Assembly (NCBI GenBank): GCA_001247695.2
Contig: LGRX02028952.1
Coordinates: 1 to 17,866, forward strand
Reading direction: 5' to 3'
DNA length: 17,866 nucleotides
Source: Cymbomonas tetramitiformis
Lineage: Eukaryota > Chlorophyta > Pyramimonadophyceae > Pyramimonadales > Pyramimonadaceae
Shown: one piece after another, positions 1-17,866 of the stretch
Position numbering within the stretch: position 1 is the first letter of the stretch
How the letters are laid out: the number at the start of each line of letters is the position of its first letter
Position numbers and translations under genes: made by a program
Notes under the pieces: generated by a model
Databases searched by the model: none
What the model was told of the DNA's origin: nothing
The model's input: the letters and a program-made list of their open reading frames with translations, nothing else

Positions 1-2
1 TG

Positions 3-350: not shown

Positions 351-518
351 TGCTGGAAACAGCAGCTCAGGCAGTGAGGACCCGCTGCCGACGGTGAAAC
401 AACGGATCACTAAACTCGGATATACAAACGATATATACCCGAGATGAGTGACACAGGCTGACCACCGAAGATGACATACAGGAATGACACTAGACTGTAC
501 GAACTAGTCGTAGTGTCA
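351..518 (-). repeat. Outer LTR, left, inverted
   Basis: A 168-bp LTR on the minus strand, starting TGACACTACG at 518 and ending CCAGCA at 351. It appears identical to the right outer copy. Its TG...CA ends are typical of LTRs. Its minus strand carries GGGTATATAT, a TATA-like core inside a partial inverted repeat bounded by CTCGG and CCGAG. It borders the ATATT target duplication. Confidence 0.9.
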
Positions 519-977
519 ATTCCAGCACACCACCTCATCTGAGGTGGACCAGCTAGTGACACTCACCACCCTAGCTACTAGAGTTTACAGAGAAATGTCA
601 AGATGTTAACTCTAGGGAGCTAGTCAAAGTCACAGGTGGCAAGATGAATGTACAGGCTAGCAAAATAATACTGCTAAGCCTAGGAAATTGCTAGGACCAT
701 TCTGGTCTGCTAAAATTAATGCTCTGCCAGCTAGTGGTGGGTGAACACACAATCCTCGCCTGTCTGCATGTGATGGAGAATGTAAAAAATAAGTCTGCCT
801 GTCGGTTTAGCTTTTAGCATGCTGCGAACTGAAAAGGCCTCTTGCCTGTAAATTGCTCGTCTTAATTGTGAAAGGCTGCCCGCAAGTGGTGAGACATAAA
901 ACAGCATCCTTCAGCCCAAAACTACAGCAAGTGGTGGAGAATTCAAAAAGGGAACACCGCCTGTCTGTTTAAAGAAA
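519..977 (-). other. Internal region of left arm, 3' of the ORF, non-coding
   Basis: This is the mirror of 3444-3902. No ORF is supported. It is rich in CTAG-containing words. Next to the LTR (529-546) is a small hairpin with CCACCTCA and TGAGGTGG arms two bases apart. This is where a polypurine tract would be expected. On the ORF strand the bases before the LTR are purine-biased (GATGAGGTGGTGTGCTGG) but do not form a clean tract. Confidence 0.6.
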
Positions 978-1901
978 TCAATAGAAGCCATCACCAGAAT
1001 CGTAACTAGCATCATCCTCATAATAAGAATCTCCATCATAAAATGCTGCACCACCAGTTTCAACGGAATCGTGGGCTCCTGCCTTCCAGGCAGCCCACTC
1101 CTCTGCGGTGTACTCGATCTCATCGTCCGTAGTAGACTCATCTTCAAAAGAAACTGCGTCTACATGAAACTCGCTTTGCGGTAAAAATTCCTCCCCAAGT
1201 GGGGGCTCCAAAACTCCGCCATAAGAGTCGCCCTGGAAACCTGTGTCCAGGGTTTCATCCTGTTCCAATCGATCGGACGAAAAATGCGGAGCGGCCAAGT
1301 GGCCATCTTGCTCCTCCTTTACTTCCTCACAACTGTCGCTGGAATCATCGAAGTACCCAAGTGGATACTCCGATTCATCTACTTCTTCACTACTTAAATA
1401 CTCCTCATAACCGCGAATAACCCCAGAGCCCATATAGGGAGGCACAATGGGAGGTGCATGGACATAGTGAACTTCGGTTACCACAGGAGGGGCCTGTGGC
1501 ACCATCTCGCTTGCCCTAGTGGCACTAGGCAAGGGTCTAGTGGTGGAAACTTGAGTAGAAATTGATCGGACGCCCAAAACTGCATCGCCATCGCCAACGC
1601 CTTTCTCACAAAGTGAAGGTGTAGAATTCTCGGAATCTACGGTTGCAAGCTCAACGCCCTGGACACCACCAACCGGTGTGCCAGTCTCTGAAACAATAAT
1701 TTGCAGAGAAATTGGTGAAGAATCCGCTGAGGAAACTGCCGAAAAATCCGAACTCCGAAAATGTGAAAGAGCGCGCCCCATAGAGGCACACAATGACAAC
1801 AGCTGCGAGCGTTTGAGGGTTGAGACCCTCTCCTGTAAACTATCAATAGTCGCCAAAAGAGCAAGAAGCTCCTCACTCGAAGAAAACTGCTGTGAATCCA
1901 T
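978..1901 (-). CDS. Retroelement ORF, acidic 307-aa protein of unknown function (left copy)
   Basis: The ATG at 1901 opens a 307-codon frame ending at 978. The N-terminal part (MDSQQFSSSEELLALLATID, then LQERVSTLKRSQLLSLCASM) looks helical and could self-associate. The middle is rich in Pro, Ser and Thr. The C-terminal half is strongly acidic and tyrosine-rich (DDEIEYTAEEWAAW, YYEDDASYDSGDG). There is no zinc knuckle, protease, reverse transcriptase or integrase motif. By position behind the primer-binding site it takes the place of gag, but I do not recognise it as Gag. It is a mirror duplicate of 2520-3443 and differs by one residue seen, Lys here against Glu there, at base 1085. Confidence 0.8.
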   Translation of the reverse strand: MDSQQFSSSEELLALLATIDSLQERVSTLKRSQLLSLCASMGRALSHFRSSDFSAVSSADSSPISLQIIVSETGTPVGGVQGVELATVDSENSTPSLCEKGVGDGDAVLGVRSISTQVSTTRPLPSATRASEMVPQAPPVVTEVHYVHAPPIVPPYMGSGVIRGYEEYLSSEEVDESEYPLGYFDDSSDSCEEVKEEQDGHLAAPHFSSDRLEQDETLDTGFQGDSYGGVLEPPLGEEFLPQSEFHVDAVSFEDESTTDDEIEYTAEEWAAWKAGAHDSVETGGAAFYDGDSYYEDDASYDSGDGFY

Positions 1902-2112
1902 CAAAGAAAACGAGATCTAACAATGAAATAACGAAACAAAAATCGTAGGAGTCCACCCCGTCGTAATCGCCCAAAGCCGTAAGCAGTCGTTTCCAGAAAA
2001 TCTGAAGAATTCGTTCTAAAGCGTCCCACAAGGCGTGGAGACGCTCAACCGAAAGATAGGGCGGAAATAAAATAAAATTCTACGCTAAAATTCAGTTCAC
2101 GCGAACGTGAGA
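1902..2112 (-). other. Leader between primer-binding site and ORF, left arm
   Basis: Untranslated leader of the left copy, mirror of 2309-2519. It has no ORF of note. It presumably holds packaging or dimerisation signals, though no specific one can be named. Confidence 0.45.
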
Positions 2113-2124
2113 AGGACCATAACC
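2113..2124 (-). promoter_or_regulatory. Primer-binding site, half-tRNA initiator Met type (left copy)
   Basis: On the minus strand the bases directly after the LTR end CCAGCA read GGTTATGGTCCT. The anticodon arm of eukaryotic initiator tRNA-Met (GGGCCCATAACC) would pair with GGTTATGGGCCC, so the first eight bases and ten of the first eleven match. Drosophila copia is primed by a cleaved initiator tRNA at this internal site. Here the site abuts only 6 bp of LTR end, since the rest of that LTR is missing at the centre. Confidence 0.6.
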
Positions 2125-2130
2125 TGCTGG

Positions 2131-2296
2131 ACACTACGACTAGTTCGTACAGTCTAGTGTCATTCCTGTATGTCATCTTCGGTGGTCAGCCTGTGTCACT
2201 CATCTCGGGTATATATCGTTTGTATATCCGAGTTTAGTGATCCGTTGTTTCACCGTCGGCAGCGGGTCCTCACTGCCTGAGCTGCTGTTTCCAGCA
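2131..2296 (+). repeat. Central shared LTR, forward
   Basis: A single LTR serves both arms. It lacks its first one or two bases: where the outer copies start TGACACTACG, this copy reads TGCTGG then ACACTACG. The TGCTGG (2125-2130) is the complement of the LTR end CCAGCA and belongs to the left arm, leaving one shared G at the joint. The remaining 166 bp match the right outer LTR as far as I can read, including the TATA-like GGGTATATAT. Confidence 0.88.
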
Positions 2297-2308
2297 GGTT
2301 ATGGTCCT
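2297..2308 (+). promoter_or_regulatory. Primer-binding site, half-tRNA initiator Met type (right copy)
   Basis: GGTTATGGTCCT follows the central LTR end CCAGCA with no gap. It pairs with the anticodon arm of initiator tRNA-Met, with one mismatch in eleven bases. This is the intact LTR/primer-site junction of the element and indicates Ty1/copia affinity, which is inference because no pol gene is present. Confidence 0.65.
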
Positions 2309-2519
2309 TCTCATGTTCGCGTGAACTGAATTTTAGCGTAGAATTTTATTTTATTTCCGCCCTATCTTTCGGTTGAGCGTCTCCACGCCTTGTGGGACGC
2401 TTTAGAACGAATTCTTCAGATTTTCTGGAAACGACTGCTTACGGCTTTGGGCGATTACGACGGGGTGGACTCCTACGATTTTTGTTTCGTTATTTCATTG
2501 TTAGATCTCGTTTTCTTTG

Positions 2520-3443
2520 ATGGATTCACAGCAGTTTTCTTCGAGTGAGGAGCTTCTTGCTCTTTTGGCGACTATTGATAGTTTACAGGAGAGGGTCTCA
2601 ACCCTCAAACGCTCGCAGCTGTTGTCATTGTGTGCCTCTATGGGGCGCGCTCTTTCACATTTTCGGAGTTCGGATTTTTCGGCAGTTTCCTCAGCGGATT
2701 CTTCACCAATTTCTCTGCAAATTATTGTTTCAGAGACTGGCACACCGGTTGGTGGTGTCCAGGGCGTTGAGCTTGCAACCGTAGATTCCGAGAATTCTAC
2801 ACCTTCACTTTGTGAGAAAGGCGTTGGCGATGGCGATGCAGTTTTGGGCGTCCGATCAATTTCTACTCAAGTTTCCACCACTAGACCCTTGCCTAGTGCC
2901 ACTAGGGCAAGCGAGATGGTGCCACAGGCCCCTCCTGTGGTAACCGAAGTTCACTATGTCCATGCACCTCCCATTGTGCCTCCCTATATGGGCTCTGGGG
3001 TTATTCGCGGTTATGAGGAGTATTTAAGTAGTGAAGAAGTAGATGAATCGGAGTATCCACTTGGGTACTTCGATGATTCCAGCGACAGTTGTGAGGAAGT
3101 AAAGGAGGAGCAAGATGGCCACTTGGCCGCTCCGCATTTTTCGTCCGATCGATTGGAACAGGATGAAACCCTGGACACAGGTTTCCAGGGCGACTCTTAT
3201 GGCGGAGTTTTGGAGCCCCCACTTGGGGAGGAATTTTTACCGCAAAGCGAGTTTCATGTAGACGCAGTTTCTTTTGAAGATGAGTCTACTACGGACGATG
3301 AGATCGAGTACACCGCAGAGGAGTGGGCTGCCTGGGAGGCAGGAGCCCACGATTCCGTTGAAACTGGTGGTGCAGCATTTTATGATGGAGATTCTTATTA
3401 TGAGGATGATGCTAGTTACGATTCTGGTGATGGCTTCTATTGA
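2520..3443 (+). CDS. Retroelement ORF, acidic 307-aa protein of unknown function (right copy)
   Basis: The ATG at 2520 follows TTCTTTG and opens a frame to TGA at 3441-3443. A TTG codon just upstream is in frame but is not a credible start. The sequence matches the left copy apart from Glu where that copy has Lys (codon 3336-3338). The reading frame is intact in both arms, as expected if the duplication is very recent. Layout: helical N-terminus of about 45 residues, a Pro/Thr/Ser-rich middle, and an acidic Tyr- and Asp-rich C-terminus. Its neighbours are the primer site 211 bp upstream and the LTR 459 bp downstream. A structural (Gag-like) or nucleic-acid chaperone role is possible but unproven. 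Confidence 0.82.
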   Translation: MDSQQFSSSEELLALLATIDSLQERVSTLKRSQLLSLCASMGRALSHFRSSDFSAVSSADSSPISLQIIVSETGTPVGGVQGVELATVDSENSTPSLCEKGVGDGDAVLGVRSISTQVSTTRPLPSATRASEMVPQAPPVVTEVHYVHAPPIVPPYMGSGVIRGYEEYLSSEEVDESEYPLGYFDDSSDSCEEVKEEQDGHLAAPHFSSDRLEQDETLDTGFQGDSYGGVLEPPLGEEFLPQSEFHVDAVSFEDESTTDDEIEYTAEEWAAWEAGAHDSVETGGAAFYDGDSYYEDDASYDSGDGFY

Positions 3444-3902
3444 TTTCTTTAAACAGACAGGCGGTGTTCCCTTTTTGAATTCTCCACCACTTGCTGTAGT
3501 TTTGGGCTGAAGGATGCTGTTTTATGTCTCACCACTTGCGGGCAGCCTTTCACAATTAAGACGAGCAATTTACAGGCAAGAGGCCTTTTCAGTTCGCAGC
3601 ATGCTAAAAGCTAAACCGACAGGCAGACTTATTTTTTACATTCTCCATCACATGCAGACAGGCGAGGATTGTGTGTTCACCCACCACTAGCTGGCAGAGC
3701 ATTAATTTTAGCAGACCAGAATGGTCCTAGCAATTTCCTAGGCTTAGCAGTATTATTTTGCTAGCCTGTACATTCATCTTGCCACCTGTGACTTTGACTA
3801 GCTCCCTAGAGTTAACATCTTGACATTTCTCTGTAAACTCTAGTAGCTAGGGTGGTGAGTGTCACTAGCTGGTCCACCTCAGATGAGGTGGTGTGCTGGA
3901 AT
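3444..3902 (+). other. Internal region of right arm, 3' of the ORF, non-coding
   Basis: Mirror of 519-977, with no supported ORF. The stretch 3875-3892 is the CCACCTCA/TGAGGTGG hairpin. Just before the LTR, TGCTGGAATTGACAC repeats the hexamer TGCTGG that also marks the central junction, a possible microhomology for template switching. Confidence 0.55.
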
Positions 3903-4070
3903 TGACACTACGACTAGTTCGTACAGTCTAGTGTCATTCCTGTATGTCATCTTCGGTGGTCAGCCTGTGTCACTCATCTCGGGTATATATCGTTTGTATA
4001 TCCGAGTTTAGTGATCCGTTGTTTCACCGTCGGCAGCGGGTCCTCACTGCCTGAGCTGCTGTTTCCAGCA
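3903..4070 (+). repeat. Outer LTR, right
   Basis: 168 bp from TGACACTACG to CCAGCA. The first eight bases, TGACACTA, recur inverted as TAGTGTCA at 3929-3936. The TATA-like GGGTATATAT is at 3981-3990. It is followed directly by the second ATATT target copy. Confidence 0.9.
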
Positions 4071-4082
4071 ATATTTACAGTT

Positions 4083-7000
4083 TCAATCATCAGAACCGTC
4101 TTCACTGTTACTAGCACTAGAAAGGATTTCCTTCGTCGGAGACCCCGCTTCGGAGCTGGTGGTTTCGTAGGCCCGATGCAAGTTATCCTTGAAGATGGGG
4201 CGGAGGTGGCTGATGGGAACCACCAGGCCCCACTTTGACTTGTCCCCGAAGGGGTACGTCTTCTCCTCCATCGCAGTGAGAAGTTGGGACCCGAGGCCAC
4301 CCGGCCCGGCGATCTTGTCGTTCGCCTTGAGGCCCTTGCCGCACATCTTCTCCAACCCGACAAAGGCCATTTCCATGCCATTTTGCCAGGCGGACAAGAG
4401 CAACGGGGCGTTGTCAAAGCCAACGTCGTCCTTGTCTACGGCCAAAGAGAGCACCTGGGTGCAGTCACACAAAAGTTTACGATCAGCTGCAAATGTCACT
4501 TACGTAATTAAAGAAACTAAATACATATCCAGAAGACGTGCGGAAGATACCCAGAAGACATATGTGATATCTTCTGGATATCGTCTATTCTAAGGGTTGT
4601 GCTTGCAGAACCATACCTTGATGCCAACATAGTCGCCTTTCAACTGAAGGCCGGTGACCGACTTCTTTTTCGTTGTATACGACTTCAAGCCATGGGCGGC
4701 CACATCCTTTGAATTGGGTGGGTGCGTTATCACCCCCGTGAGAAGGGGCATGTCCGCGGTCCATATCGCGGACTTCCCCTTCTCGTGGTAGAACCCCGTG
4801 GGGATATCTCCGGATCGTTCACCAGAGACTCCACCACGCAATACAATATGTCTCTTACCCATCTGTTGGCTGCAGCCAACATAAAGGCCCTTTATGTTGG
4901 CTGGAGCCAACATAAGCCTTGCTGACAATCCCGGGAGCTGTTGATACCGGATGGTACATTTCAGTAGCTCAAAATGAAGGCGGGGATGCTCTCTTTCACA
5001 CATGCGTTACCAATATTGGGCCGCTCAAAATTATCGAAGATAATTTGGGTTAATATGCGAAAGAATGTACAATTTTGTGGATTTCCCAAGAAACTTTTGG
5101 TGTTTTCATAGCCATGTTACTTTGATCGATATTTTGAGGGTCAAGATGAACTCGGATGAAAGTTTTGACAAGACACTGCAGAAAGAGCAGCTCGAGAACT
5201 TGACAACATAGGTCTTCGATTTTTTAATGCCCTTCTCATGCCGCCCCTATTGCCCACATTTATTATGACCACTTATGTTGGCTGCAGCCAACATAAGGTG
5301 CATTTTGTCTTTTCGCGATCACGCCCTAGCTCTAGGGCACAATTATGCAAGCGTCCGTGGGTGCAATCAGGGATATCACGTATTGACAATTTTGTAAAGG
5401 TCTAGTAGCCCTTCAAACAACATTGCTTTCGAGCAATATGCATCATTAACCATGAGTTATATACTTCGGAACTTTGGGTTTTATGTTGGCTGCAGCCAAC
5501 ATAAAGATGGGTAAGAGACAAATACCACGTGGCTACCCACCTCAAACCCCTCTTCAGCATCCTCCGCCACCGCCTTCTTCTTCCCCTTCGGGTCCTCCGC
5601 CACCGCCTTCCCCTTCGGGTCCACCGATGCCGCCTTCCCCTTCGCCTTGTTGTCCTCCGCCACCGCCTCCGCCACCTTCCTAACCTTAGAGCTGCCCGCC
5701 TTTTTTTCCAGCTCCTCGATCTGCGTCTTTGACTCCAACTCGAGCTGCAAGCATGCCGCCACTGAAACAGGCATATGTTAGTATGTTATACAAGAAGACA
5801 CTCAGAAGACACTCAGAAGACAGTCAGTCATACTTGCCTATTAGCTAAGCCCTATTAACTAAGGAAGACGTGCAGAATACTCTCAAAACGTCTCTGAGGT
5901 GTCCTGGTGACGTCTTCTTGGTGAGACAACAAAACAGGTGAAACAGAAATTAATTAAGCAAATTAACGTACCCATCTCATCCTTCGCCTCACCGTCCAAG
6001 GCGTCCAAGGCCTTGGCGGGCAGCTCGTGCAGCACCAACCCGTCGATGCTGAGCAACGCTGCCTTTTTTTCCTCGTTGTCCACTACCCTTCGGTACATGG
6101 GGATGTACCCAAGGGCCTTAGGTACAGAACGATGTACCTAAGCCGTACATATTAAATCAAGGCCCAAATCCGACGTTTTGTGCCCCTTGTAGTGACAATT
6201 AACCAATAGACACCCTCTTCTATCGATATTATGATCCAACATTCGGATCCGATCCGTACAATATACGCTCTGATGCATTCAAAATCACTCTTTTTGAAGA
6301 AAATAAAAAAACCCCAGGTCAAAATAAATGTTTTCCCGCTATATTCGGCAAGCTCGGCATTGTTCTCTCTGTGAACGTTCGGCTGGATTCTGGTAGTAGA
6401 CCTTGATAAAATATAATTCACATGTAGTTAGAAAATCCAAAAAATCCGCGCTATTGACCTTGCTCGCGGTACGTATCCAACATGGCCGCTCGTCGCGCAA
6501 TAGGGCAGCTTCTCCAAGGACGCGAGGTGAAGGCACACGCTGCAGCCTTCAACTCCAAGTGGAGTTCCGCAAGCGAAAGGCAGAAATCCGACAATAATTG
6601 GCAAGAGCCTTCATTATGAGATGCTTTAAATAATTTCCATGCAAGCCTCTAACCACACCTGATGAATATCGTTCACTCGTACGTGCGAAACCCTAAGGCG
6701 GAATATCGATTTTCGTGCATGCATATACTGTGGGATCAGTTTTAGGTGCCTACAACCGCGTGTCGAGTGAAGGCGTGCTTGGGTGTTTAAGTGCAAACCC
6801 CTGAAATTACAACTGCCCTAAGGGGTGTTAAATACCATTGTAACAAATGTGTATCGATATTCATCATTCAGCGGTCGTACACATGCATCAAACGCGATGT
6901 ACCTAAGGGATGTACCTAAGATTTTCGGAGTTTTGAAAATGTACATTTTCTGAAATTTGTCAATATCGATGACCTGCCTAGACTATCGTATTGAGCTAAA

Positions 7001-7730
7001 TACCATAAACCAAATGCTTCAGGACCAACAGGGACATGTCATCAACGGCTGAAATGGGCCACACGACCCCGCGTCGAGAATTTGGCTCACCGCGGCATTA
7101 AACGTACACGTATAGTTAGGTACATCGCGATGTACCTAAGCGTGGGTAGTGGACATCGTGCGTTGGGTACTTGGTTCGGGCGTCGGTCTCAATGACCAAC
7201 GCCTGAATGGCGTCCGTGTGCTTGCGGTAGTATGGGTGGGCGGTCCGGGAGGCGTGCCAAACCCACTTTCCCTTTTCGGTGCCCCTCCCCGACACACAGG
7301 TATACACCCCATACCTCCAAAATATTCTAAAATCGCAAATCATGTTCCTGAGGCGCCTGCTCACATCACGAACATCGTAGTCGTCGCTGCAGGCCAGGAC
7401 TTCCTCCCTGAAGGCCGTAGCCGCAAACGCTTGGTCCGTTACGTTAAGCAGCGGGTCCAGCCGCCCGTCGCAAATCCGCTCCACCATGATGCGCGTGAAG
7501 TCCGCTTGGAAGTGGAGCCCGCCCGTCTTGGACAACTTCTTCTTGGACTCCCCGCCTTGGTTTCCCCCACCGCCTCCGCTCCCCTCCTCCCCATCCCTTG
7601 CTACGAGCCACTTGATGAAGTTTTCGTCGCTGGCGTTGCCTCCCACCGCCGCGACAAACGACTCAAACTTCTCCCGGAGGTCACCCTCCTTCACCCCGCT
7701 GGCATTCTTTCGTTTCAAGGAATTAGACAT
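4083..7730 (-). CDS. Transposon-associated protein of unknown function, five exons
   Basis: The model on the minus strand has exons 7730-7136, 6082-5972, 5761-5501, 4900-4617 and 4454-4083, totalling 1623 bases (540 aa plus stop) with all phases compatible. The ATG at 7730 (AAAATG, reading MSNSLKRKNASG) is preferred to an in-frame ATG at 7904. Residues 1-198 hold a Gly-rich linker and then a compact region containing FRIFWRYGVYTCVSG and KWVWHASRTAHPYYR. Residues 236-322 begin with a probable coiled coil (LQLELESKTQIEELEKK) and continue with Lys/Ala/Glu repeats around KAVAEDPKGKKKAVAED. The last third is a folded-looking domain (KWGLVVPISHLRPIF) with an acidic Ser-rich tail. I recognise no family. 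The gene is divergent from the Tnp2 transposase about 1.6 kb away, and CACTA elements commonly carry a second protein that binds subterminal repeats, so an accessory role is inferred. Class II insertions interrupt it twice. Splice sites at 4901-5500 and 6083-7135 are one of several in-frame choices. Confidence 0.68.
4455..4616 (-). repeat. Class I intron of the minus-strand gene
   Basis: 162 bp between AAG|GTATGG and GCACCCAG|GTG. On the minus strand it reads CCAGAAGATATC, then TGTCTTCTGG, TATCTTCCG and CGTCTTCTGG, a foldable GAAGA/TCTTC block. A nearer acceptor, TTTGCAG, is out of phase. Confidence 0.7.
4849..5520 (-). mobile_element. Class II intron-forming insertion A (672 bp)
   Basis: The ends are 15-bp perfect inverted repeats, TGTCTCTTACCCATC at 4849-4863 and its complement at 5506-5520. 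AATA flanks both sides (4845-4848 and 5521-5524). The 24-bp palindrome with half TTATGTTGGCTG occurs near the left end (4864-4884, shortened), at 4892-4915 (one mismatch), at 5272-5297 and at 5480-5505. No ORF is supported inside. On the coding strand the donor TTAT|GTTGGC lies in the first palindrome and CTCCAG is a phase-matching acceptor. Removing the insertion with a GTATT duplication, and treating four bases (minus-strand TATT) at its exit side as element-derived, restores the frame as HVVLRGGVSGERSGD. A strict 4-bp excision does not. Confidence 0.8.
5762..5971 (-). repeat. Class I intron of the minus-strand gene
   Basis: 210 bp between ATGG|GTACGT and CCTGTTTCAG|TGGCGG, phase 1 at both sides. 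On the minus strand it contains AAGAAGACGTC early and three spaced TGTCTTCTGAG-like repeats late, at 5790-5825. It is the longest GAAGAC intron in this gene, with an apparent spacer between the arms. Confidence 0.75.
6077..7155 (-). mobile_element. Class II intron-forming insertion B (1079 bp)
   Basis: Terminal inverted repeats TGTCCACTACCC at 6077-6088 and its complement at 7144-7155, flanked by TCGT on both sides (6073-6076 and 7156-7159). The 24-bp palindrome with half TTAGGTACATCG is perfect at 7116-7139 and imperfect at 6117-6142. Two head-to-tail half sites, GATGTACCTAAG, lie at about 6895-6920. The rest is AT-rich with no supported ORF. Deleting the element and one TCGT rejoins exon 1 and exon 2 in frame as KYPTHEEKKAALLS. 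As it stands, donor TTAG|GTACAT inside the palindrome and acceptor GGGTAG|TGGACA inside the terminal repeat give an in-frame mRNA with a few added residues. Confidence 0.85.
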
Positions 7731-8692
7731 TTTGTTTTCTGAGTTCTTTAAAAAGTCAAACTGTGCTGGAAGTATCGTAAACGGGTACTTTTTAGCGCCG
7801 CAAAGATGCCTGGAAGACGGGCAGAAGGTCTTTCGCGTGTCTCTGACGCATCCCGTTCCGTACCCCGGTGATCGTACCGGTATCGAAACGACACCAACGT
7901 TCAAACAGTGCCGTCGATCAGCGAGCCCCTTTACCTATCGCGTCGGATCGGTCGAGTGAACTCTAGATGGGTTTTTACGGGAAAATCGAGGACTCTCAAC
8001 AGTTTCGTACCGAGTTCGTACAGTACCGTTCGAAAAATCCAAGATAGCAGTCTGGAGCTGTCGTAGCCGAGTGGTGGGGATGACCTGTTGCCCGGTCTTC
8101 GGGCCGTGAGGCGGCGGTTCAAACTCGCCGTGGGGCTGATGCGACATGAGCCGAACGACGTGTAGTGATCGGGCGCCAATAGGAGCTAATGACGCTGGCG
8201 TCTTTAATTAATTAAGGCCCTTCAGACGCCATACCCTTTTTCGATTTGCAGTCTGGAGTTTCTATGGGGCCCAGATTTTTCCCGCCTTTGATCCACAGGT
8301 GGGAAATCGTTTTTCGCGATCACGGTGACACTGACCCCGTCGAATTTCGTGCTTGTAAGTTTTTTGACACCCCTTCCTCATCTTTCGTCCCGTCCGATTA
8401 AGACGGGGGGGTTTATCTGGACCGCAGATTGCACTGTCCGCTGCGCGCGTGATCGACTCTTCGACCGTTGCTAGGAGCGATGGTGCTCTAAAACAAGAGC
8501 AGTTTCTTCTACCAAATTAGGCGGCCGTTTTAACTTAGTAACTTGGTACGTTTGACCCTCTCCCGAACAAACCACTTGTTTTTTTGCAATTCTACCTTCA
8601 CAGTACGGTTTTGCTCAATATTGCGCACCTTATATGTTTTTTTGTTTTTTCGCGATTTTTTATAGTTTTTTTCAAAAAATACAAAAACACCC
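7731..8692. other. Divergent intergenic region, promoter side of both genes
   Basis: No gene is supported. It should hold the minus-strand gene's promoter, but no clear TATA box stands out. A tRNA-like block is at 8057-8139. A short inverted repeat (TGGCGTCT and AGACGCCA around TTAATTAATTAA) is at about 8191-8229. T- and A-rich tracts follow at 8578-8700. Confidence 0.5.
8057..8139 (+). repeat. tRNA-derived SINE head or tRNA pseudogene
   Basis: TAGCCGAGTGG at 8064-8074 fits an RNA polymerase III A box, and GGTTCAAACTC at 8116-8126 fits a B box. The latter sits in a good T-arm (GGCGG, loop TTCAAAC, TCGCC). Between them is a hairpin GCCCG-GTCTT-CGGGC like the long variable arm of tRNA-Ser or tRNA-Leu. 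The would-be acceptor stem (GCTGTCG against GTGGGGC) does not pair, so it is not a working tRNA gene. Confidence 0.45.
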
Positions 8693-9258
8693 AAAAAACA
8701 TTCGGAAGATACCCCAGATATCTTCTGTGCATCTTTCTACCCTCCAGAGATGTCTTTGAGGAAGACATGTCTTCTGGAAATCTGCAACTTGTAGAAGTTC
8801 CACCGAACGTCTTAGCACCCCTCTTAGGGGCGTCTTCCTCATTTTTTTGACGATCTTCTACGCGTCTTCTAATGTCTACCTAGCACGTTCGGTGGAACTT
8901 CTACAAGTTGCAGATTTCCAGAAGACATGTCTTCCTCAAAGACATCTCTAAGACAACCGGAAGATGTACAGAAGATATCTGGGGTATCTTCCGCAAACAC
9001 AGTCAAGAAGACGTCCGGAAGATGTCAAAAAATGTCTTCCGCGTGTCTTCTGTGTGTCTTCCGCGCGTCTTCCGCGCGTCTTCCGCGCGTCTTTCGCACC
9101 TCTTCTGGGTTCAGGAAGACATATATTCCCCGAAGATGTCTGGAAGATGTACAGAAGGTATCTGGGGTATCTTCCGCAAGCACAGTCAAGAAGACGTCCG
9201 GAAGATGTCGGGAAATGTCTTCCACGTGTCTTCTGAGTGACTTCTGAACGTCTTCTGA
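8693..9258. repeat. GAAGAC/GTCTTC hairpin array upstream of the transposase
   Basis: Dense GAAGAC and GTCTTC words throughout. A 65-bp inverted repeat, apparently perfect, pairs 8746-8810 with 8885-8949 and extends imperfectly to 8704 and 8990. A 95-bp direct repeat starts GGAAGATGTACAGAAG at 8959 and again at 9142. Between them (about 9035-9106) GTCTTCCGCGC-type 11-mers repeat in tandem. The words are those found in class I introns of both genes. Confidence 0.85.
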
Positions 9259-9321
9259 GTGTTTGTCTTCAGGATGCCCTCCGCACTACCTTGGCCAAGT
9301 GTCCTTTGTATAGGAGATAGA

Positions 9322-12300
9322 ATGGCAAGTAAACGTGCCGCGCATCTCCAAAAGGGGGAAGCGCCCCCAAAGACCAAAATGTCGTCCTTCAAACGAGCGA
9401 TGCTCACTAAACCCCCCCCCGAATCCGCGGCGGAGGTCTTCCGTCAATCCAAGCCGGAGGTCTTGAAGGGGAAGATGGCAGCGGTGCACGATTGGTTGTC
9501 TACGGTGTCGCCATCCCGCGAGCTGGACCATGAGATGACGGCATGGCTCGGGGAATCCGTCTACATTCATGAGCATTCCCCTGCAACAAGGTGCTTGCTT
9601 GTCTCCATAACCCACATGCATCTATCATGCACATTTATGCAGTTTGGAATGCATACAACCGAAGATGTGTGGAGCATCTTCTGCGCAACTTCCGGACGTC
9701 TTGCACGTGTCTTCTATGAATTCACCATCACAATGTGTTCGCAGGGCTGAAGATCATGAGGACGCGGTTCGTATTTGCGTGCCGCGTCAAAGCAACCGGC
9801 CACCTTTCGGCTTAGCCGAGCCCACTAATGTGCTTTTCTCGGTTCAAGAGTTTTTTGGCTATGTGCAAGCAATTTCAGACTTGCATGAACCGGGCTTTAA
9901 GGAGCATACGTGGGAGGATATTTTCTCCGATCCATTGGACTTGGCCGATGATCCGGGCACGGTGCACTTTCGACAACATAAGTGGCTGCTTGAGCCTCCC
10001 ATTGGCGTCAACCTCCAAGGAATGGTGTTGAAGATACGGGATGCAATCGCATCGGGCGAACCATATCATCGTCCTCCGGAGCTTGTGAGTGATGGGGATA
10101 GGCGGATGAATCCGCAAAGGCTTACACCTTCACCTCCGGCCCCAATGGATGAAGTTGTGGACATGACCTATACCGAAGTCCATGAGCCCGAGGACCCTCC
10201 CCCGGAGAGGCCAACACGAAGGTGCGAACCGGTTGGCACGGCATGCCCGTATCTCCATGAAATATGTATGCCTGCACGCTCCGTCGGAAGTCGTTCCGAA
10301 GACGTCCCGAGCGTCTTCTGCACATCTTCCGGGCTCGTTCCGGTCAAGCTTATTCCCGGCGGATGCGTGTGACATGCTTGCGCAGGCGGATGAAAGGCCC
10401 CGTAGCACACCGCAACATGCCTCCCACGCCCGTCGAGTTGGCGGGTGAGACGCAAGAAGATGACGGGGCCGCCGTTGGTATCACGTCCAACCGTGACCCC
10501 CTCCCCCCGGAGAGGCCAACACGAAGGTGCGAACCGGTTGGCACGGCATGCCCGTATCTCCATGAAATATGTATGCCTGCACGCTCCGTCGGAAGTCGTC
10601 CCGAAGACGTCCCGAGCGTCTTCTGCACATCTTCCGGGATCATTCCGGTCAAGCTTATTCCCGGCGGATGCGTGTGACATGCTTGCGCAGGCGGATGAAA
10701 GGCCCCGTAGCACACCGCAACATGCCTCCCACGCCCGTCGACTTGGCGGGTGAGACGCAAGAAGATGACGGGGCCGCCGTTGGTATCACGTCCAACCGTG
10801 ACCCCCTCCCCCCGGAGAGGCCAACACGAAGGTGCGAACCGGTTGGCACGGCATGCCCGTATCTCCATGAAAGATGTATGCCTGCACGCTCCGTCGGAAG
10901 TCGTCCCGAAGACGTCCCGAGCGTCTTCCGCGCACATCTTCCGGGCTCATTCCGGTCAAGCTTATTCCCGGCGGATGCGTGTGACATGCTTGCGCAGGCG
11001 GATGAAAGGCCCCGTAGCACACCGCAACATGCCTCCCACGCCCGTCGACTTGGCGGGTGAGACGCAAGAAGATGACGGGGCCGCCGTTGGTATCACGTCC
11101 AACCGTGACCCCCTCCCCCCGGAGAGGCCAACACGAAGGTGCGAACCGGTTGGCACGGCATGCCCGTATCTCCATGAAAGATGTATGCCTGCACGCTCCG
11201 TCGGAAGTCGTTCCGAAGACGTCCCGAGCGTCTTCTGCACATCTTCCGGGCTCGTTCCGGTCAAGCTTATTCCCGGCGGATGCGTGTGACATGCTTGCGC
11301 AGGCGGATGAAAGGCCCCGTAGCACACCGCAACATGCCTCCCACGCCCGTCGAGTTGGCGGGTGAGACGCAAGAAGATGACGGGGCCGCCGTTGGTATCA
11401 CGTCCAACCGTGACCCCCTCCCCCCGGAGAGGCCAACACGAAGGTGCGAACCGGTTGGCACGGCATGCCCGTATCTCCATGAAATATGTATGCCTGCACG
11501 CTCCGTCGGAAGTCGTCCCGAAGACGTCCCGAGCGTCTTCTGCACATCTTCCGGGATCATTCCGGTCAAGCTTATTCCCGGCGGATGCGTGTGACATGCT
11601 TGCGCAGGCGGATGAAAGGCCCCGTAGCACACCGCAACATGCCTCCCACGCCCGTCGACTTGGCGGGTGAGACGCAAGAAGATGACGGGGCCGCCGTTGG
11701 TATCACGTCCAACCGCGGGCCCGGGATGGTGGTGTGTGATTGTGGCGCGTGTCACTCATCCATGCGCTTCGTCACCATGAGGACACGGTCTCGACATAGG
11801 ACTATGTTCAAACAGATTGTATGCCTTCCGACGCTTCCGGAAGAGGCGGTGGACGACGATGAGCAACATCCCGATGGCGAGTGCCTATTCTACGAAGGGT
11901 GGGTATACCCACCGTAAGAGGTGCTTACGGTGGGTATACCCACCCGAAGGATATCAATAATTACCGATGATTGGGTGCGAATCACGGCATGTCACCAGTG
12001 ACCAACTTGTTCTAGACACTCCCGTGAATCTCTATGGAGCCTCCACATGCGCCAGAAATGACTTGATAACGGGCCAAACGAACCCAAATACCCAAACCCT
12101 AATATCATCGGAATGCACTGTGTATATAGTATATTTGGTGTGCATAGTACCTGATTTTGAATGTGCAAGTGTCGGAGGTCTGCGAGGTGGCAGCACATAT
12201 TGTACCAAAAAGTACGTCGGTTATATACCAAAATCAAAGTACATATCGAAAAAATAAGTATATTGATGTTATACCAAGCTGCAGAAGTCTGCAAATAGAG

Positions 12301-15300
12301 TTGAATGGGTATACCCACCGTAAGCGAAGTTTTCTACCCACCGTTATTTCCCCAACTTCAAGGTTGTGTAATGTGCCCAAAACTTATCGGAGTCGTGTAA
12401 ATTAAGTTTTCCGTCCTTTAATCAACCTCCTGGGTCACAGAAAATCCATATGTTTAACCCCCGCAACCTACTTGTGCGGTCGGTACGAGCTTGCAAAGTT
12501 TGGCGTTACGGTGGGTATACCCACCGTAATATTTTTAGAATAGGCGCGAGGAGTCGGATCAGGTGTGCAACTCCGGGTAGAAAGACTATCATTCTCAGGT
12601 AACCCTCGCGGAAGGTACCCGGAAGAGGTGCAGAAGATCTTTCGGGTATCATCCGCATGTCTTCATGAGAATGAAGGTACATATCAAAATCGGTTACTCC
12701 TGATAGGTAATGCAGTTGTTCTTCACAATTGGCACGTATGTATCTCTTGCCCATTGAAAGTGATTGTGGTTGACAGGAAGATGCCGATTCCGGTTCCCTT
12801 GACGATGCCGATGCCGATGGAAACTTGCCGGACCCGGAAGCCGTTCAAGAAGAGCTCGACGAATTACTCGACCATGTCGACCCGGAACTTGCTAGAAAGG
12901 TGACGGAAGAAATCGAAGGAAAATTAAAGTCGTTGGAGAACTTGGCTGATATGGATGAGGTAACGTTCGCTGTTTGAATATTTTGCTCGGAATTGAAAAT
13001 TGTATATAGTGTGATGTCTTTTGTACCCGGAACACGCCCGGAAGTTACATGGGACGTCTTCCGTGCGTCTTCCTGACGTCTTCCGTTTTATCCTTCGATG
13101 ACAGACCGCAGCGACGAGCTCCGAGGATACCCTACTCGACTTATTGGAGTGGAATCTGGATGGCAATATGACTCAAGAATCCTTTGGGCAACTGCTGCAC
13201 ATTTTGAAAACTAATCACCCGGACGTGTTTTCTAAGTTGCCCGACTCCTTCAAACAAAGCATTGCTCGGTTTAAGGTCATTGATATCCCACTCCTAGTGG
13301 TGGACCTTTGCCCGCATGGATGCGTGATGTTCGAAAAACAATTCGCGGACTTTGACTTCTGTCCAAGGTGCGGGGCATGCCGTTGGGAGGGAGGTAAGGA
13401 TCGGTGCGGTGCGGGGAATGCCGAGGGTGCGGACGACACCCGGAATGCCGAAGCCACCCCGAGTGCAAAGCGGGGGAAGGCGAAGTGCCAATTCTATCAT
13501 TGGCATTTAAAGGATTTACTTCAAGCAATTTACAGCCATCCCGACGTTGCTGGGCTCATGCGTTCGCACGCCACGCGGGAAAAGTCTGAGGAAGGCATTC
13601 TGGAAGACATTCCCGGTGAGTAACACATTGATAGAGCATATCCTGAATTGCCCCGAAGAGGTACAGAAGATGTACAGAATGTCTTCCGTACATCTTCCGT
13701 ACGACTTCCTGATTCCTACTACTTGAATGAATTTAAGTTGTATTTATGTATCTTGCAGATGGATCTGAGTGGAAGGCGAAGCAAGCTGCATATCCTGACT
13801 TCTTCAAGGACCCTCGCAACGTCATCCTCATGCTTTGCGCCGACGGGGCCACCGTTTGGAAGGACAAGTCGGGGGTTTTCCCTACTTACTTTCAAGTGTT
13901 GAACTTGCCACCGGAAATCCGCAAGAGGTTTGTGAACCTTGAGTTGTGGGGAATGATGGCGGGGAAGCCGAAGAACACCACCATCCTCTACGAGAAGTTG
14001 GTAGACGAGCTTTTGGAACTTTGGGAAGTTGGGTTTCCATGTTGGGACTCCTTCACGGACGACGTGTTCCAATGCCGGGCGATGCTTCTTGCCGCCGTGT
14101 TTGACTATGTAGGGCTCGTCGATGCTATGAACATTATGGGCGTGGGCAGCTTCTGTGCGTGTGCAAAATGTTTGATCCGGGGGAAGGGGAAATGCCCGCA
14201 TCTAAATAAGATGTTGTACAAGTTTTGCGAGCAAGATCCGCCAGGTCCGTTTTCCCCAAAGACATGCCGAATGTATTCACAAGATCTTCCGGATGTCATC
14301 TGAGCGTCTTCCTGTTATTGTACGCAGGGCCCGCCGTACCAAAGACCGACGAGTTCATTCGACGCGCGGGCCAACGACACGTCTTGCTTAGCACGTGTAA
14401 GAATGCGGCCAATCTTCAGGAAGTGTTGGAGGAGGAAATCGGCGAAACCGGTGTGAAGTTCCCATCGGCACTATCTCGTTTGCCGTATTTCGATCTTTCC
14501 AAGAATGTCATCCTTGACGGCATGCATCAACTCCGAAACCTTGGGCTATATGTCCATGAGGCACTCATGGGGTTCGACTTTACGCCGGGTGTAAGAGAGC
14601 ACGCTCGCGCGAACGATATACATCCCACGTGGTGGAAGACGACAAGGGACGACAAAGGTGATGCAGTCAAAACCCGACCACTAGATAGGAAGGCGCCCGG
14701 AAGATGCCCCAAGTATCCTCTACGTGCCTTCCAGATGTCTTCCTGTCACCACTAACTTTCGCACCCGGGAAAATGACAGGTGTGGAACGATATTCAATGG
14801 CAATTGGTCCGTTTCAAATCCCGATGCGTGCAAAAGGGTCGAAATCTTTGAGGTCGCTAGAGACCGCCTTGAAGTTCATGACGGAGCTCTCGTTGGGAAG
14901 GTCATGGGGGCAAGGCCATACGAAGATGTTGCGTCCGAACGGCACGAACACCGGACCGAAGACGCTCAAGTGTCACGAGGCGTTGAAAATGCTACAAGCG
15001 GGCATCATGAGCGTGCTAGCGTCTTGGGATAGAGACGAGGGCTACTCGAAAAACATGCTTGAAGACTTGATCGGGCAGTTGACGGTCATAACGAGAGAGC
15101 TCACTTCGGAGCTTGTAGACTGTAAGGTACGGAAGACACCTGGAAGACATCCAGAATACTTTCCGAGTACATTCCACACGTCTTCCCTAATTGCCTTTTA
15201 TTTGGTGATTTTGCAGGATGTTCCTAAGCTTCAAAATCTGGTGGATGAGTTCTTCAAGTCACTCGAGCGCGATGGCTCACCTGACTGGCTGGTCATCAAC

Positions 15301-16628
15301 ACGCATTTGCTTTCCCACTTCCCCGACCAACTCCTCATGTATGGTCCAATACGGGGGACATGGATGTACGTGTTCGAATCATTCAACGGGAAGATTCGAA
15401 GGTGGGTGAAGAACAATGCATATCCGGTTCAGAGTGTTATGCAAGGCTTCGGGCGGTACCGGATGGTGCATGTGGTGCGAGGGTTAATCTTGGTACTTCG
15501 TCGCCGGCGGGAGGCAACCACCAATCCCACCCGGCCACCCGTGCTCCCGTTCTTGGCCACCGCACCGTTGAGGGCGCCGAACACCGTGGTTTTGGGAACA
15601 CAAGGCAAGCGCCATGTACTCTCCCGCGCTGAAACGAAAGCGCTGGAGCTGTGGATGCATGGCAACGTGCCCCAATACCGCAAGTTGAAGGCAAAATTCG
15701 ACGCCTACGTCACCTACTGCAAGAGGTAAGTAAGAAATGAAACCCATAAGGTGCCTGGAAGACGTTTCATATATCTTCTAGGCATCTTCCACACGTCTTC
15801 GGTAAATACATGTCCTGACACTGTGCACGTATACATTCGCAGGGAAAACCATATGGTTCGGAGACGTATTGGCGCACGAGCCGGAGCGTCTCGCCTGATG
15901 GATGTGCCGCTGCATATGCACGGTAGCGATCCCAAGGTCTGGCTGGGGAGACCATTCACGGAGAATGAAGCGGCACTCGTCGAAGGGCCTCCTCACGTGT
16001 GTCAATCTTTCGGCTCGGTCGTGGTTCGAGGAGTTTGCTATCGCACGGCAGCTCAGGACAAGACGAAGAAAACTTGTCAACGTTACTTCCGAGCCTTTTT
16101 CTCTGGAGAAAACATCAAAGGCGAGGAAATCGAGACTGACCGGTGCGTCCGTGCATTACGTTTTGGTGAATGTGCGCAGAATATGTACCGAATGTCTTCT
16201 GCGTGTCTTCCTTACGTCTTCGGGGATTCTTACTATAGAGTATAATTGTGGCTCCAACTCGCAGGTACGCCATGGTAGATAGCATCTACAAGGTCGACTT
16301 GGCCGCGAAAGAGTACATTCTTGTGAAGGGAAAGTGGTTCCCTGAATTCAACCAAGCGACGACAAAACGGTTTGCCAAGCTAAACTCGAAGTACGGGCCG
16401 GACAATACCGCAAAGGTGGTGTACACATACGACCCGGATGATCCCGAGACACCTTGGGACACTACTGATCCATTCATCCTGGCGGCTCAAATTGAGCACC
16501 AAGTTGTAATCAAGAAACATCCTGTGATGAAGACGGCGGTGGTATTTGATTTAAAGGCTGACTTTTTCGAGTGCATCGACGATGATGGTTCACGACCGAA
16601 AGGTGCAAGACGCAAGAGGCGATCATGA
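9322..16628 (+). CDS. CACTA (Tnp2-type) DNA transposase, 16 exons
   Basis: Exons: 9322-9590, 9745-10248, 10386-10553, 10691-10858, 10998-11165, 11303-11470, 11608-11902, 12539-12562, 12777-12959, 13105-13615, 13759-14244, 14328-14657, 14780-15126, 15217-15725, 15843-16142 and 16265-16628. They total 4794 bases (1597 aa plus stop) with every phase matching. The start is MASKRAAH (AGAATGG context). Cys718/722/735/738 in CPHGC...CPRC form a likely zinc site. The transposase core has Asp848 (LMLCADGATVWKD), Asp935 (AVFDYVG), clustered Cys952/954/957, and VILDGMH near 1045, which resembles the Tnp2 LDVMH block. Residues about 1150-1290 (MYGPIRGTWMYVFESFNGK) fit DUF4218. The tail with DPFILAAQIEHQ fits DUF4216, then basic ARRKRRS. 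Together these fit plant-type Transposase_21 proteins, which cut and paste DNA in the nucleus. Residues about 258-482 are the tandem 56-aa modules. No inactivating change was seen. The exon 7/8 junction is the least certain. Confidence 0.87.
9591..9744 (+). repeat. Class I intron 1 of the transposase
   Basis: 154 bp, ACAAG|GTGCTT to TGTTCGCAG|GGC, phase 2. The GAAGATGTG, GCATCTTCTG, CGTCTTGC and GTGTCTTC words lie at about 9660-9720. Confidence 0.75.
10249..11607 (+). repeat. Five-unit exon-intron tandem array inside the transposase gene
   Basis: The unit is 305 bp: a 137-bp class I intron (GTATCTCCATG to GCTTGCGCAG) plus a 168-bp exon. Introns are 10249-10385, 10554-10690, 10859-10997 (139 bp, extra CG near CTTCCGCGCAC), 11166-11302 and 11471-11607. 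Each exon is 56 codons and phase-neutral, opening RMKGPVAHRNMPPTPV and closing RRCEPVGTACP. A second possible donor 17 bases downstream would give 185-bp exons that break the frame. Variants show a higher order: intron copies 1 and 4 share GTCGTTCCG and CTCGTTCC, while copies 2 and 5 share GTCGTCCCG and GATCATTCC. A 917-bp block was therefore duplicated last. The array is a recent amplification of one exon-intron junction. Confidence 0.88.
11882..12546 (+). mobile_element. Class II intron-forming insertion C (665 bp)
   Basis: Inverted ends GCCTATTCTA at 11883-11892 and its complement at 12536-12545, flanked by GCGAG on both sides (11877-11881 and 12546-12550; the last element base is shared). 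The 24-bp palindrome with half TTACGGTGGGTA is perfect at 12506-12529 and near-perfect at 11897-11918 and 11924-11946. A partial copy is at 12306-12322. No ORF is supported. Deleting the insertion with one target copy joins the frame as HPDGEESDQEDADSG. In the present gene three donors are in phase with a usable acceptor: TGG|GTATAC with TTTTTAG|AAT, or CC|GTAAGA or GG|GTGGGT with AGAATAG|GCGC. The choice changes the protein by only a few residues. Confidence 0.83.
12563..12776 (+). repeat. Class I intron 8 of the transposase
   Basis: 214 bp, GATCAG|GTGTGC to GGTTGACAG|GAAGAT, phase 0. The block CCGGAAGAGGTGCAGAAGATC, abbreviated here as CCGGAAGAGG and CAGAAGATC, is followed by ATGTCTTCATG at 12655-12667. 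A competing donor, CTCAG|GTAACC at 12599, would put the next exon out of frame. Confidence 0.65.
12960..13104 (+). repeat. Class I intron 9 of the transposase
   Basis: 145 bp, GATGAG|GTAACG to GATGACAG|ACCGCA, phase 0. It has a CCCGGAAGTT word, then three CGTCTTCC-type words at about 13054-13087. Confidence 0.78.
13616..13758 (+). repeat. Class I intron 10 of the transposase
   Basis: 143 bp, CCCG|GTGAGT to ATCTTGCAG|ATGG, phase 1. It is one of the clearest hairpins: GTACAGAAGATGTACAGA, then GTCTTCCGTACATCTTCC. Confidence 0.82.
14245..14327 (+). repeat. Class I intron 11 of the transposase
   Basis: 83 bp, CCAG|GTCCGT to TGTACGCAG|GGC, phase 1, the shortest intron here. The motif (AAAGACATG, AGATCTTCCGGATG, GCGTCTTCC) fills nearly all of it. 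Confidence 0.78.
14658..14779 (+). repeat. Class I intron 12 of the transposase
   Basis: 122 bp, CAAAG|GTGATG to AATGACAG|GTG, phase 1. CCCGGAAGATGCCC and later GTGCCTTCCAGATGTCTTCC form the arms. Confidence 0.76.
15127..15216 (+). repeat. Class I intron 13 of the transposase
   Basis: 90 bp, TGTAAG|GTACGG to TTTTGCAG|GATG, phase 0. The motif begins directly at the donor (GTACGGAAGACACC) and ends with CACACGTCTTCC. Confidence 0.82.
15726..15842 (+). repeat. Class I intron 14 of the transposase
   Basis: 117 bp, AAGAG|GTAAGT (near-consensus donor) to CATTCGCAG|GGA, phase 2. TGCCTGGAAGACGTTTC pairs with regions of CTAGGCATCTTCC, followed by ACGTCTTCGG. Confidence 0.84.
16143..16264 (+). repeat. 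Class I intron 15 of the transposase
   Basis: 122 bp, GACCG|GTGCGT to AACTCGCAG|GTA, phase 2. Only right-arm words are strong (GAATGTCTTCTG, GTGTCTTCC, ACGTCTTCGG); the left arm is decayed (CAGAATATGTACCG). Confidence 0.75.
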
Positions 16629-16786
16629 TAATACGCCGGGCATCGTACTTAGTGGTCTGTATGTTGAATAGATGCAATCGTACATGTATGTGTAGATAGA
16701 CCTATCAATTAACTTAGCCGTATATCATGTATCATAGCAACAGAGCATGATGACCATTCTACACATTTGGGGAGTTTGGGAGTTTT
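16629..16786 (+). other. 3' flank of the transposase
   Basis: AT-rich sequence after the stop, with no supported ORF. No AATAAA was found; the polyadenylation site cannot be placed. Confidence 0.4.
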
Positions 16787-17550
16787 GGGAGTTGGGGAGT
16801 TTTACAATGGGAGGCCCTGAAAAAATTGAAAATTTGCCCGAATCTAGGGTTTAAGATTTTCCCGAGTTGAATGTAATTTTATTTAATTTTCCGGTTGTTT
16901 TAGGGTTTAAGAAATATTCCTGATTTTCACTAAAAAAATCATCTTTTTCAGCCTGAATTCAGGAAGGTTTATGGGGGTTTTTGTGTTAAGAAAACATAAA
17001 TTTTCAATTGAACTTGTACAATATTTCATGCTTTTTTAAGCTTCAAATTTTTTTTCGAAACTCGGTAGCAAAATGATACTTTTTACGTCTGATTTTCATG
17101 AAATATGTTTTTGGGGGTTCATCGATGAACCCCTTTTATTTTTTCTAGTTTTATATGAATTTCAGGCCTTTTTGGGAGTTGGGGAGTTTTACAAGGGGAG
17201 GCCCTGAAAAAATTGAAAATTTGACCGAATCTAGGGTTTAAGATTTTCCCGAGTTGAATGTAATTTTATTTAATTTTCCGGTTGTTTTAGGGTTTAAGAA
17301 ATATTCCTGATTTTCACTAAACAAATCATCTTTTTCAGCCTGAATTAAGGAAGATTTTTGGGGATTTTTGTACTAGGAAAACATAAATTTTAAATTAAAC
17401 TTGTACAATATTTGCCGCATATTTGAGCTTCAAAAAGATTTCCGAGAATCGATGGCAAAATGATACCTTTTACGCCTGATTTCATGAAATGTATTTTTTG
17501 GGGTTCATCCATGAACCCCAACGATTTTTTTATGTTTTTTTTTTATGAAT
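16787..17550. repeat. Two-copy 387-bp tandem repeat
   Basis: GGGAGTTGGGGAGTTTTACAA begins both units (given to 20 bases: GGGAGTTGGGGAGTTTTACA), at 16787 and 17174. The following CCCTGAAAAAATTGAAAATT, TCTAGGGTTTAAG and CACTAAA words recur in order. Each unit ends with a 20-bp palindrome of half GGGGTTCATC (perfect at 17114-17133, one mismatch at 17500-17519). No ORF. It could be subterminal DNA of the transposon or unrelated satellite-like DNA. Confidence 0.8.
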
Positions 17551-17670
17551 TTCATGCCTTTTGGGGGTTTCGAAAATTTTCGGAATTTTGGTTAAAAAAA
17601 CCTTAATTTTTTTACCACTTTCAGAAATTTCTTTGGTTGGCTTTGTCTCTATTTTTGCAGACGCTGACAG

Positions 17671-17866
17671 ATGGTGGGCCGAAGGCCCATGGGGAGTTGG
17701 GATAAAGGGTGAGGGAGGAGGAAAATTCGGTGGGCCGAAGGCCCGTGGGGAGCCGGGAGAAAGGGGGAAGGGAGGGAAATTGCGGCCCGAAGGCCCGCGG
17801 GGAGCCGGGAACGGGGGGGGAGGGAAAATTGCGGGCCGAAGGCCTTCGGGGAGCTGGGATAAAGGG
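17671..17866. repeat. G-rich minisatellite, about 49-56 bp period, runs off the window
   Basis: GGGCCGAAGGCC-type palindromic cores occur at about 17676, 17732, 17784 and 17833. Each is followed by GGGGAG, GGGA(T/G)AAAGGG or G-runs and then GGAAAATT. Spacing shrinks from 56 to 49 bases. Runs of G, up to nine at about 17813-17821, could form G-quadruplexes. The fourth unit is cut by the window end. Confidence 0.8.

Follow-up and report, generated by a model that had tools for sequence, protein, structure and literature searches.

What kind of mobile DNA has interrupted two genes of the green alga Cymbomonas tetramitiformis at three places, and what moves it, are the questions raised by a contig of 17,866 bp (LGRX02028952.1, positions 1 to 17,866; the whole of this stretch is called the window below). 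A preliminary description of the window had pointed out three insertions, A, B and C, that carry inverted ends, short target duplications and 24-bp palindromes, and had taken them to be one kind of intron-making DNA transposon. Here we conclude that A, B and C are probably copies of three many-copy families of non-autonomous DNA transposons with terminal inverted repeats (TIRs) and 4-bp target duplications, likely moved by cut-and-paste by transposases that act in trans and bind the palindromes. Splicing of the elements as introns is not supported by the sequences, nor is it needed for anything that we have seen.

Ends, target duplications and genomic copies

Element A (4849..5520, plus strand, 672 bp) has perfect inverted ends of 15 bp, TGTCTCTTACCCATC (short form TGTCTCTTACCC), and is flanked by the duplicated target AATA at 4845..4848 and 5521..5524. 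Element B (6077..7155, plus strand, 1079 bp) has perfect inverted ends of 12 bp, TGTCCACTACCC, and stands between two copies of TCGT at 6073..6076 and 7156..7159; both elements lie inside the same minus-strand gene. Element C (11882..12546, plus strand, 665 bp) lies inside a plus-strand gene between copies of CGAG at 11878..11881 and 12547..12550, and its ends, TGCCTATTCTA and CGCCTATTCTA, are inverted repeats of 10 bp following a mismatched first base. The window copy of C ends in GGCG and all ten of the other C copies fetched end in GGCA; the apparent fifth duplicated base at C arises because this copy ends in G and the others in A. The duplications, first given as 4-5 bp, are therefore 4 bp in all three elements. 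At A this length is also based on the empty site seen in paralogues, which led us to drop a reading with a 5-bp duplication and filler. That the three are precise insertions of 665-1079 bp with inverted ends on one plan was borne out.

Such structures are rarely expected by chance. Pairs of perfect inverted ends of 10 bp, spaced 500-1200 bp and flanked by a 4-bp duplication, came to 0.03 per simulated window (100 simulations). The same scan of the real window recovered A and B and missed C owing to its end base; everything else that it picked up was palindromic, A/T-rich or part of a large inverted repeat.

The ends recur elsewhere, a check that the preliminary description had proposed. We searched the assembly to which the window belongs (852 Mb; the window's own copies are counted in the totals) and scored 40 matches per family out of 2,479 (A), 927 (B) and 910 (C) first-look candidates. 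All 40 matches of A were full length (1-672) with 98-100% identity, as were 38 of 40 matches of B with 97-100% identity, and all 40 matches of C covered 1-664 or 1-665 with 99-100% identity. Duplications were examined at 30 A loci, at 30 B loci (26 distinct, as several share flanks) and in 10 fetched C copies of the 40 listed. A 4-bp duplication was present at 30/30 A loci (29 at first reading, 30 with both strands read), at 27/30 B loci, with one further locus at which misplacement of the end by one base gave a reading of 3 bp, and in 9/10 C copies. The duplicated targets of A have a G+C content of 19% (30 distinct sites), against 48% and a Y-C-G-R-like profile for B (23 distinct sites), and this difference in target choice would fit different transposases.

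Further families were found with a right-end pattern built to exclude A and B, TGTC-N3-TACCC-B-N3-TTA-N-G, which had 184 matches in the genome and one in the control. Among ten of these places that were fetched, seven were two-ended elements, one was one-ended (L072) and two looked like chance matches (L078 and L079). The two-ended relatives are 645, 646 (twice), 676, 1070, 1097 and 1395 bp long, and five of the seven have an exact 4-bp duplication. D and E carry palindromes of the A type; those of F, H, Y and a variant of B are of the B type. A aligns with D over 455 bases at 69% identity and with E over 391 at 70%, in both cases outside the right-hand 220 bp. At the right end, B, F, H, Y and a one-ended locus, X, have about 260-380 bp in common at 61-68% identity; H and Y are closer to each other, at about 92%. 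Palindromes thus drift inside a class, and from one class to another they are unrelated. Seven further loci hold a subfamily of A that has the same layout and 86-87% identity to A; two of these loci are partial.

Outside their ends, palindromes and layout, A, B and C have no significant similarity to one another (best E 0.087). Their longest open frames are 78, 91 and 113 residues, respectively, and none matches Pfam at the cut-off. Dispersed copies with exact ends, a duplication of fixed length and no transposase gene inside are features of non-autonomous TIR DNA transposons. In being short, without a recognisable gene, and present in many near-identical copies, A, B and C resemble miniature inverted-repeat transposable elements (MITEs), but they differ from these in having four 24-bp palindromes at fixed places, with a sequence private to each family.

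The palindromes and their possible role

Two to four palindromes per element had been described; we find four in each, some of them degenerate. Counting mismatches to the perfect 24-mer of the same element, those of A are at 4861..4884 (two mismatches), 4892..4915 (one), 5273..5296 and 5481..5504 (both perfect). In B they are at 6089..6112 (four), 6118..6141 (three), 6883..6919 (degenerate, seven mismatches, with a second half-site at 6908-6919) and 7116..7139 (perfect), and in C at 11894..11917 (three), 11925..11948 (two), 12300..12323 (five) and 12506..12529 (perfect). The right-hand palindrome is thus perfect in all three. The spacing is nearly constant: the first palindrome starts at +12 in A, B and C and the second at +43, +41 and +43, and the third ends 224, 249 and 223 bp and the fourth 16, 16 and 17 bp before the right end. 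Read from the sequence, the palindromes themselves have in common only TTA-N-G and its mirror image, in agreement with the earlier statement that they differ wholly between elements; it is the positions that are shared. Together with the recurring ends and duplications, this layout supports the first description of A, B and C as DNA transposons of one kind, built to a common plan.

Perfect palindromes of at least 20 bp number five in the window, compared with a mean of 0.005 per window in 200 simulated windows. Palindrome A has 932 matches in the genome at up to two mismatches and none in the control. A variant pattern (TAAY), aimed at a longer relative of A, has 165 matches, again with none in the control, and we read these as probable variant copies of A from their spacing and from one overlap with L001/L002. 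Palindromes appear to carry fewer substitutions than the interior of the elements. Substitutions in 30 copies of A were 5/2880 in palindromes and 63/16559 in the interior, and in 26 distinct copies of B they were 17/2496 and 269/24880; in both families they are, as raw ratios, about half as frequent in palindromes. The 12-bp ends of B, with 7/624 substitutions, were no different from the interior.

These observations suggest how the elements could move. Transposases encoded elsewhere in the genome, possibly of the DDE type, would mobilise A, B and C by cut-and-paste. The palindromes are putative binding sites of the transposase, each of which could hold one dimer. Sites near both ends would build a paired complex, and the extra copies may help loading. 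Each palindrome class would answer to its own transposase.

A more far-reaching proposal is that these families are non-autonomous members of an undescribed DNA transposon superfamily, in which the ends (TGYC...) and the 4-bp duplication stay near constant, and a 24-bp palindrome bound by a homodimer is swapped as a set, at four fixed places, between families. The palindrome would then act as a tag that isolates each transposase from the elements of its relatives. We put this forward tentatively, as a possibility that we think less likely to be right than wrong.

Several points weigh against the reading of A, B and C as transposons of one architecture moved in trans. No transposase could be tied to the ends of A, B or C, and the sole candidate link, through locus X, failed (see below). 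Two of the 30 B loci are without any duplication, and two of the seven two-ended relatives have an inexact one. An internal palindrome is degenerate in B and in C, and B has only its right-hand copy perfect, which makes a strict need for four good sites unlikely. C has other ends (TGCC) than A and B, and its common descent with them is argued from the shared layout. An 85-residue frame in C has a weak match to HNH_2 (E 0.21, below the cut-off).

The palindromes could instead serve another purpose, for example as a promoter or silencer site or as an RNA or DNA hairpin. Single strands of them can fold, and copies are found inside the elements as well as near the ends. On the other hand, two of the four copies are located at most 17 bp from the ends, at a constant distance in A, B and C, and another copy lies 29-31 bp from the first, which argues for action at the ends. 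We therefore regard another purpose as unlikely, and keep binding by a transposase as the preferred role.

Known systems and candidates for the mobilising partner

A, B and C resemble several described groups in part. Like Ginger1 and Ginger2, they have 4-bp duplications and TG...CA ends (PMC2836005). In that report, however, Ginger ends begin with TGTNR and are inverted repeats of about 40-270 bp, whereas A begins with TGTCT, B with TGTCC and C with TGCCT, the inverted ends of the three are 10-15 bp, and no integrase was tied to them. The TGT...ACA ends of A and B are also found in IS481EU, in which part of the copies have duplications of about 4 bp (PMC10045372). Of the ends that this paper gives (TNT...AYA or TGT...ACA), those of A and B fit and those of C do not, as the other C copies end in TGC...GCA. 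IS481EU has a second duplication class of about 15 or 25 bp that is not seen in A, B or C, and it was reported from parabasalids (PMC10045372). No transposase was tied to the ends of A, B or C.

Elements of the CACTA/EnSpm superfamily have repeated subterminal motifs, CACTA-type ends and 3-bp duplications. Their transposase is of the Transposase_21 type, and the repeated subterminal motifs are what A, B and C share with them. In contrast to CACTA elements, A, B and C have TGYC ends and a duplication of 4 bp, and no tnp2 gene is tied to these ends.

The genome paper of Cymbomonas counts 52,009 copies of DNA transposons and 788,039 copies of unclassified repeats, and the portion of its text available to us describes no family of this kind (PMC10675990). 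Among open-licence papers in PubMed Central (PMC), as far as their titles tell, none describes transposons with this layout; Repbase lay outside that search and may hold entries.

Could A, B and C be deletion derivatives that depend for their movement on the tnp2-type, CACTA-like element whose genes they interrupt? A tnp2 gene is present in the window, another tnp2-like repeat has many copies in the genome, and CACTA elements carry repeated subterminal motifs. However, the one tnp2-like repeat of which an end was seen (in L082, near base 874) starts at about CACCCTACAAA and not with TGYC, CACTA duplications are 3 bp rather than 4 bp, and the window has no convincing end of the TGYC type besides those of A, B and C. 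A mover of this type is very unlikely. The tnp2 element in L082 was likewise rejected as the mover, being a separate nested repeat with an end of its own. This tnp2-like repeat covers 874-2172 of L082, and elsewhere this part is joined to 3430-5000, in copies that are without the 1.27-kb stretch 2173-3438; that stretch, repeated at other places, reads as a nested insertion.

The partner could also be another repeat, one that encodes a 785-residue protein family (P0018, CYMTET_54225) with a conserved DFSEN...HEWADG...NFFET core. It has 57 scored matches at 93-100% identity, most of them free of stops, a related open reading frame (ORF) is interrupted by a copy of A, and at C1793 such an ORF is found about 1.07 kb away from a B-type end. 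A link between this repeat and the elements was sought through X (L072 joined to L082), of which the first ~290 bp match the right end of B at 65-67% identity and in which an ORF from about 1.07 kb has 24% identity (E 1e-14) to the L021 ORF that a copy of A interrupts. This link was dropped, because in 39/39 of the other scored copies the match begins no earlier than query base 581-593 and leaves out the B-type end, which is thus not part of the repeat. A search with a pattern of the B end and the flank of X gave no second end on the contig of X among the matches listed, and the 2.1 kb upstream of the related ORF (L021, L104) contain no A-, B- or C-type end or palindrome. The structure model of the protein was unusable (mean pLDDT 35.5). 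We consider this partner highly improbable, and retain transposases encoded elsewhere as the likely movers.

The protein family is of interest in its own right. Its members P0015-P0020 (L021, L104) come from a high-copy gene in which the DFSEN, HEWADG and NFFET motifs are conserved; P0020 is one relative from another source, with 29% identity. The family is likely a transposase of an unnamed kind. It has no Pfam match at the cut-off, and a profile search of solved structures with P0018 gave no match up to E 1. On viral contigs, no relative was found of palindrome A, the DUF4218 exon, P0018 or the alignment of four proteins.

Host genes and the question of splicing

The gene that contains A and B is located at 4085..7730 on the minus strand and, read without A, B and two introns, encodes a protein of 503 residues. 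Without A and B, the protein matches CYMTET_5965 over its full length at 95%. It is a high-copy gene, and its paralogues show the empty sites: at A the frame reads through as HVVLYCVV (P0005, P0006), of which VVLYCVV is also found in P0007 and P0009, and at B as PTHEEK or PSHEQK. Among the matches listed, which are part of 210, at least 45 rows run uninterrupted across residue 190 of P0005, the B site, and at least 75 across residue 304, the A site; 3 of the 45 at the B site hold a stop elsewhere. With so many uninterrupted genomic copies, the gene that A and B interrupt is a repeat in its own right.

Element C lies in the plus-strand gene at 9322..16627, which has about 14 introns, a match to Transposase_21 (tnp2, E 9.3e-21) and a weak match to DUF4218; an exon of this gene matches a Cymbomonas tetramitiformis protein at 96%. 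We infer that the host gene of A and B and this adjoining tnp2 gene could be genes of one transposon.

All three insertions had been placed in coding sequence. This holds for B and C, whose empty sites leave a continuous reading frame; A is in frame in the paralogues, but the present copy of its gene is frameshifted. Downstream of A by ~27 nt, the minus-strand gene departs from the frame of P0005 and P0007 (PEI-SPRG against PEILPTGFY), which reflects either a decayed copy or an assembly error.

Introners are transposons that give rise to spliced introns where they land, and A, B and C could conceivably be of this kind. They interrupt exons with in-frame empty sites, and TIRs with 4-bp duplications are known in some introner families, which also insert in exons (PMC9860276). 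According to that report, the median lengths of introner families are 30-654 nt, compared with 665-1079 bp for A, B and C, and the families mostly leave the length of the mRNA unchanged (PMC9860276). GT and AG are present in the ends of A and B, and C has in this copy one in-frame pair (GA|GT...AATAG|GCG), for which the final G of its duplication is needed. Since the duplication is fixed at 4 bp, each splice pair inside an element has a fixed effect on the frame. None of 10 near-end GT-AG pairs inside the elements keeps the frame, and within 60 bp of the ends 32/110 pairs do, which is about chance. Besides the pair in C, an in-frame pair can be written for B, starting in its right-hand palindrome, and the near-end in-frame option for A exists only because this gene copy is shifted downstream.

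The host genes point in the same direction. A repeated gene with at least 45 and 75 uninterrupted rows at the B and A sites, and a tnp2-type transposase gene in the case of C, are likely to exert weak pressure for splicing. For each copy we compared the open frame of the joined flanks with 30 shuffles, a conservative measure that also misses the window's own A site. At 13/30 A and 14/26 B sites the frame is longer than in any shuffle, and several of these sites resemble retrotransposon genes by eye; 17/30 A and 12/26 B sites are outside an unusually long open frame. With frame-keeping at chance, repeated host genes and many sites outside long frames, the 'intron-making' part of the preliminary description is unsupported, and we give introners very little credence indeed as an explanation of A, B and C.

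The ordinary introns of the window are a different matter. All 16 introns delimited by eye in the genes at 9322-16627 (plus) and 7730-4085 (minus) hold TCTTC, and 13 of the 16 hold GAAGA words. These are often arranged as GAAGAYGT...CNGAAGA...TCTTCNG, and occur at 22 per kb compared with 5 per kb in coding parts. The TCTTC/GAAGA introns look like a family of repeat-born introns, and as introner candidates they rank above A, B and C.

The window has other repeats. Positions 10199-11720 contain five tandem copies of about 305 bp, each consisting of an exon of about 47 codons together with one intron; with this make-up, an exon-intron pair appears to have been multiplied in frame. Positions 350-2134 and 2287-4071 form an inverted repeat of 1785 bp that is 100% complementary, with one ORF of 312 residues in each arm (2505-3443, plus; 978-1916, minus) and 167-bp direct repeats at 2130-2296 and 3904-4070. 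It resembles a short element flanked by long terminal repeats (LTRs), present twice, head to head. A perfect 20-bp palindrome, GGGGTTCATCGATGAACCCC, at 17114-17133 is repeated with one change 387 bp further on, at 17501-17520, and may belong to an end region of the host transposon.

Given their near-identical copies, the three families of A, B and C have moved recently and may still be active. If the palindromes are indeed transposase sites, these families would offer a natural series in which one architecture is kept and the recognition sequence is replaced whole, in step at several places. The co-change of transposase specificity with its sites, and the way in which families of elements gain independence from each other, would then be directly testable.

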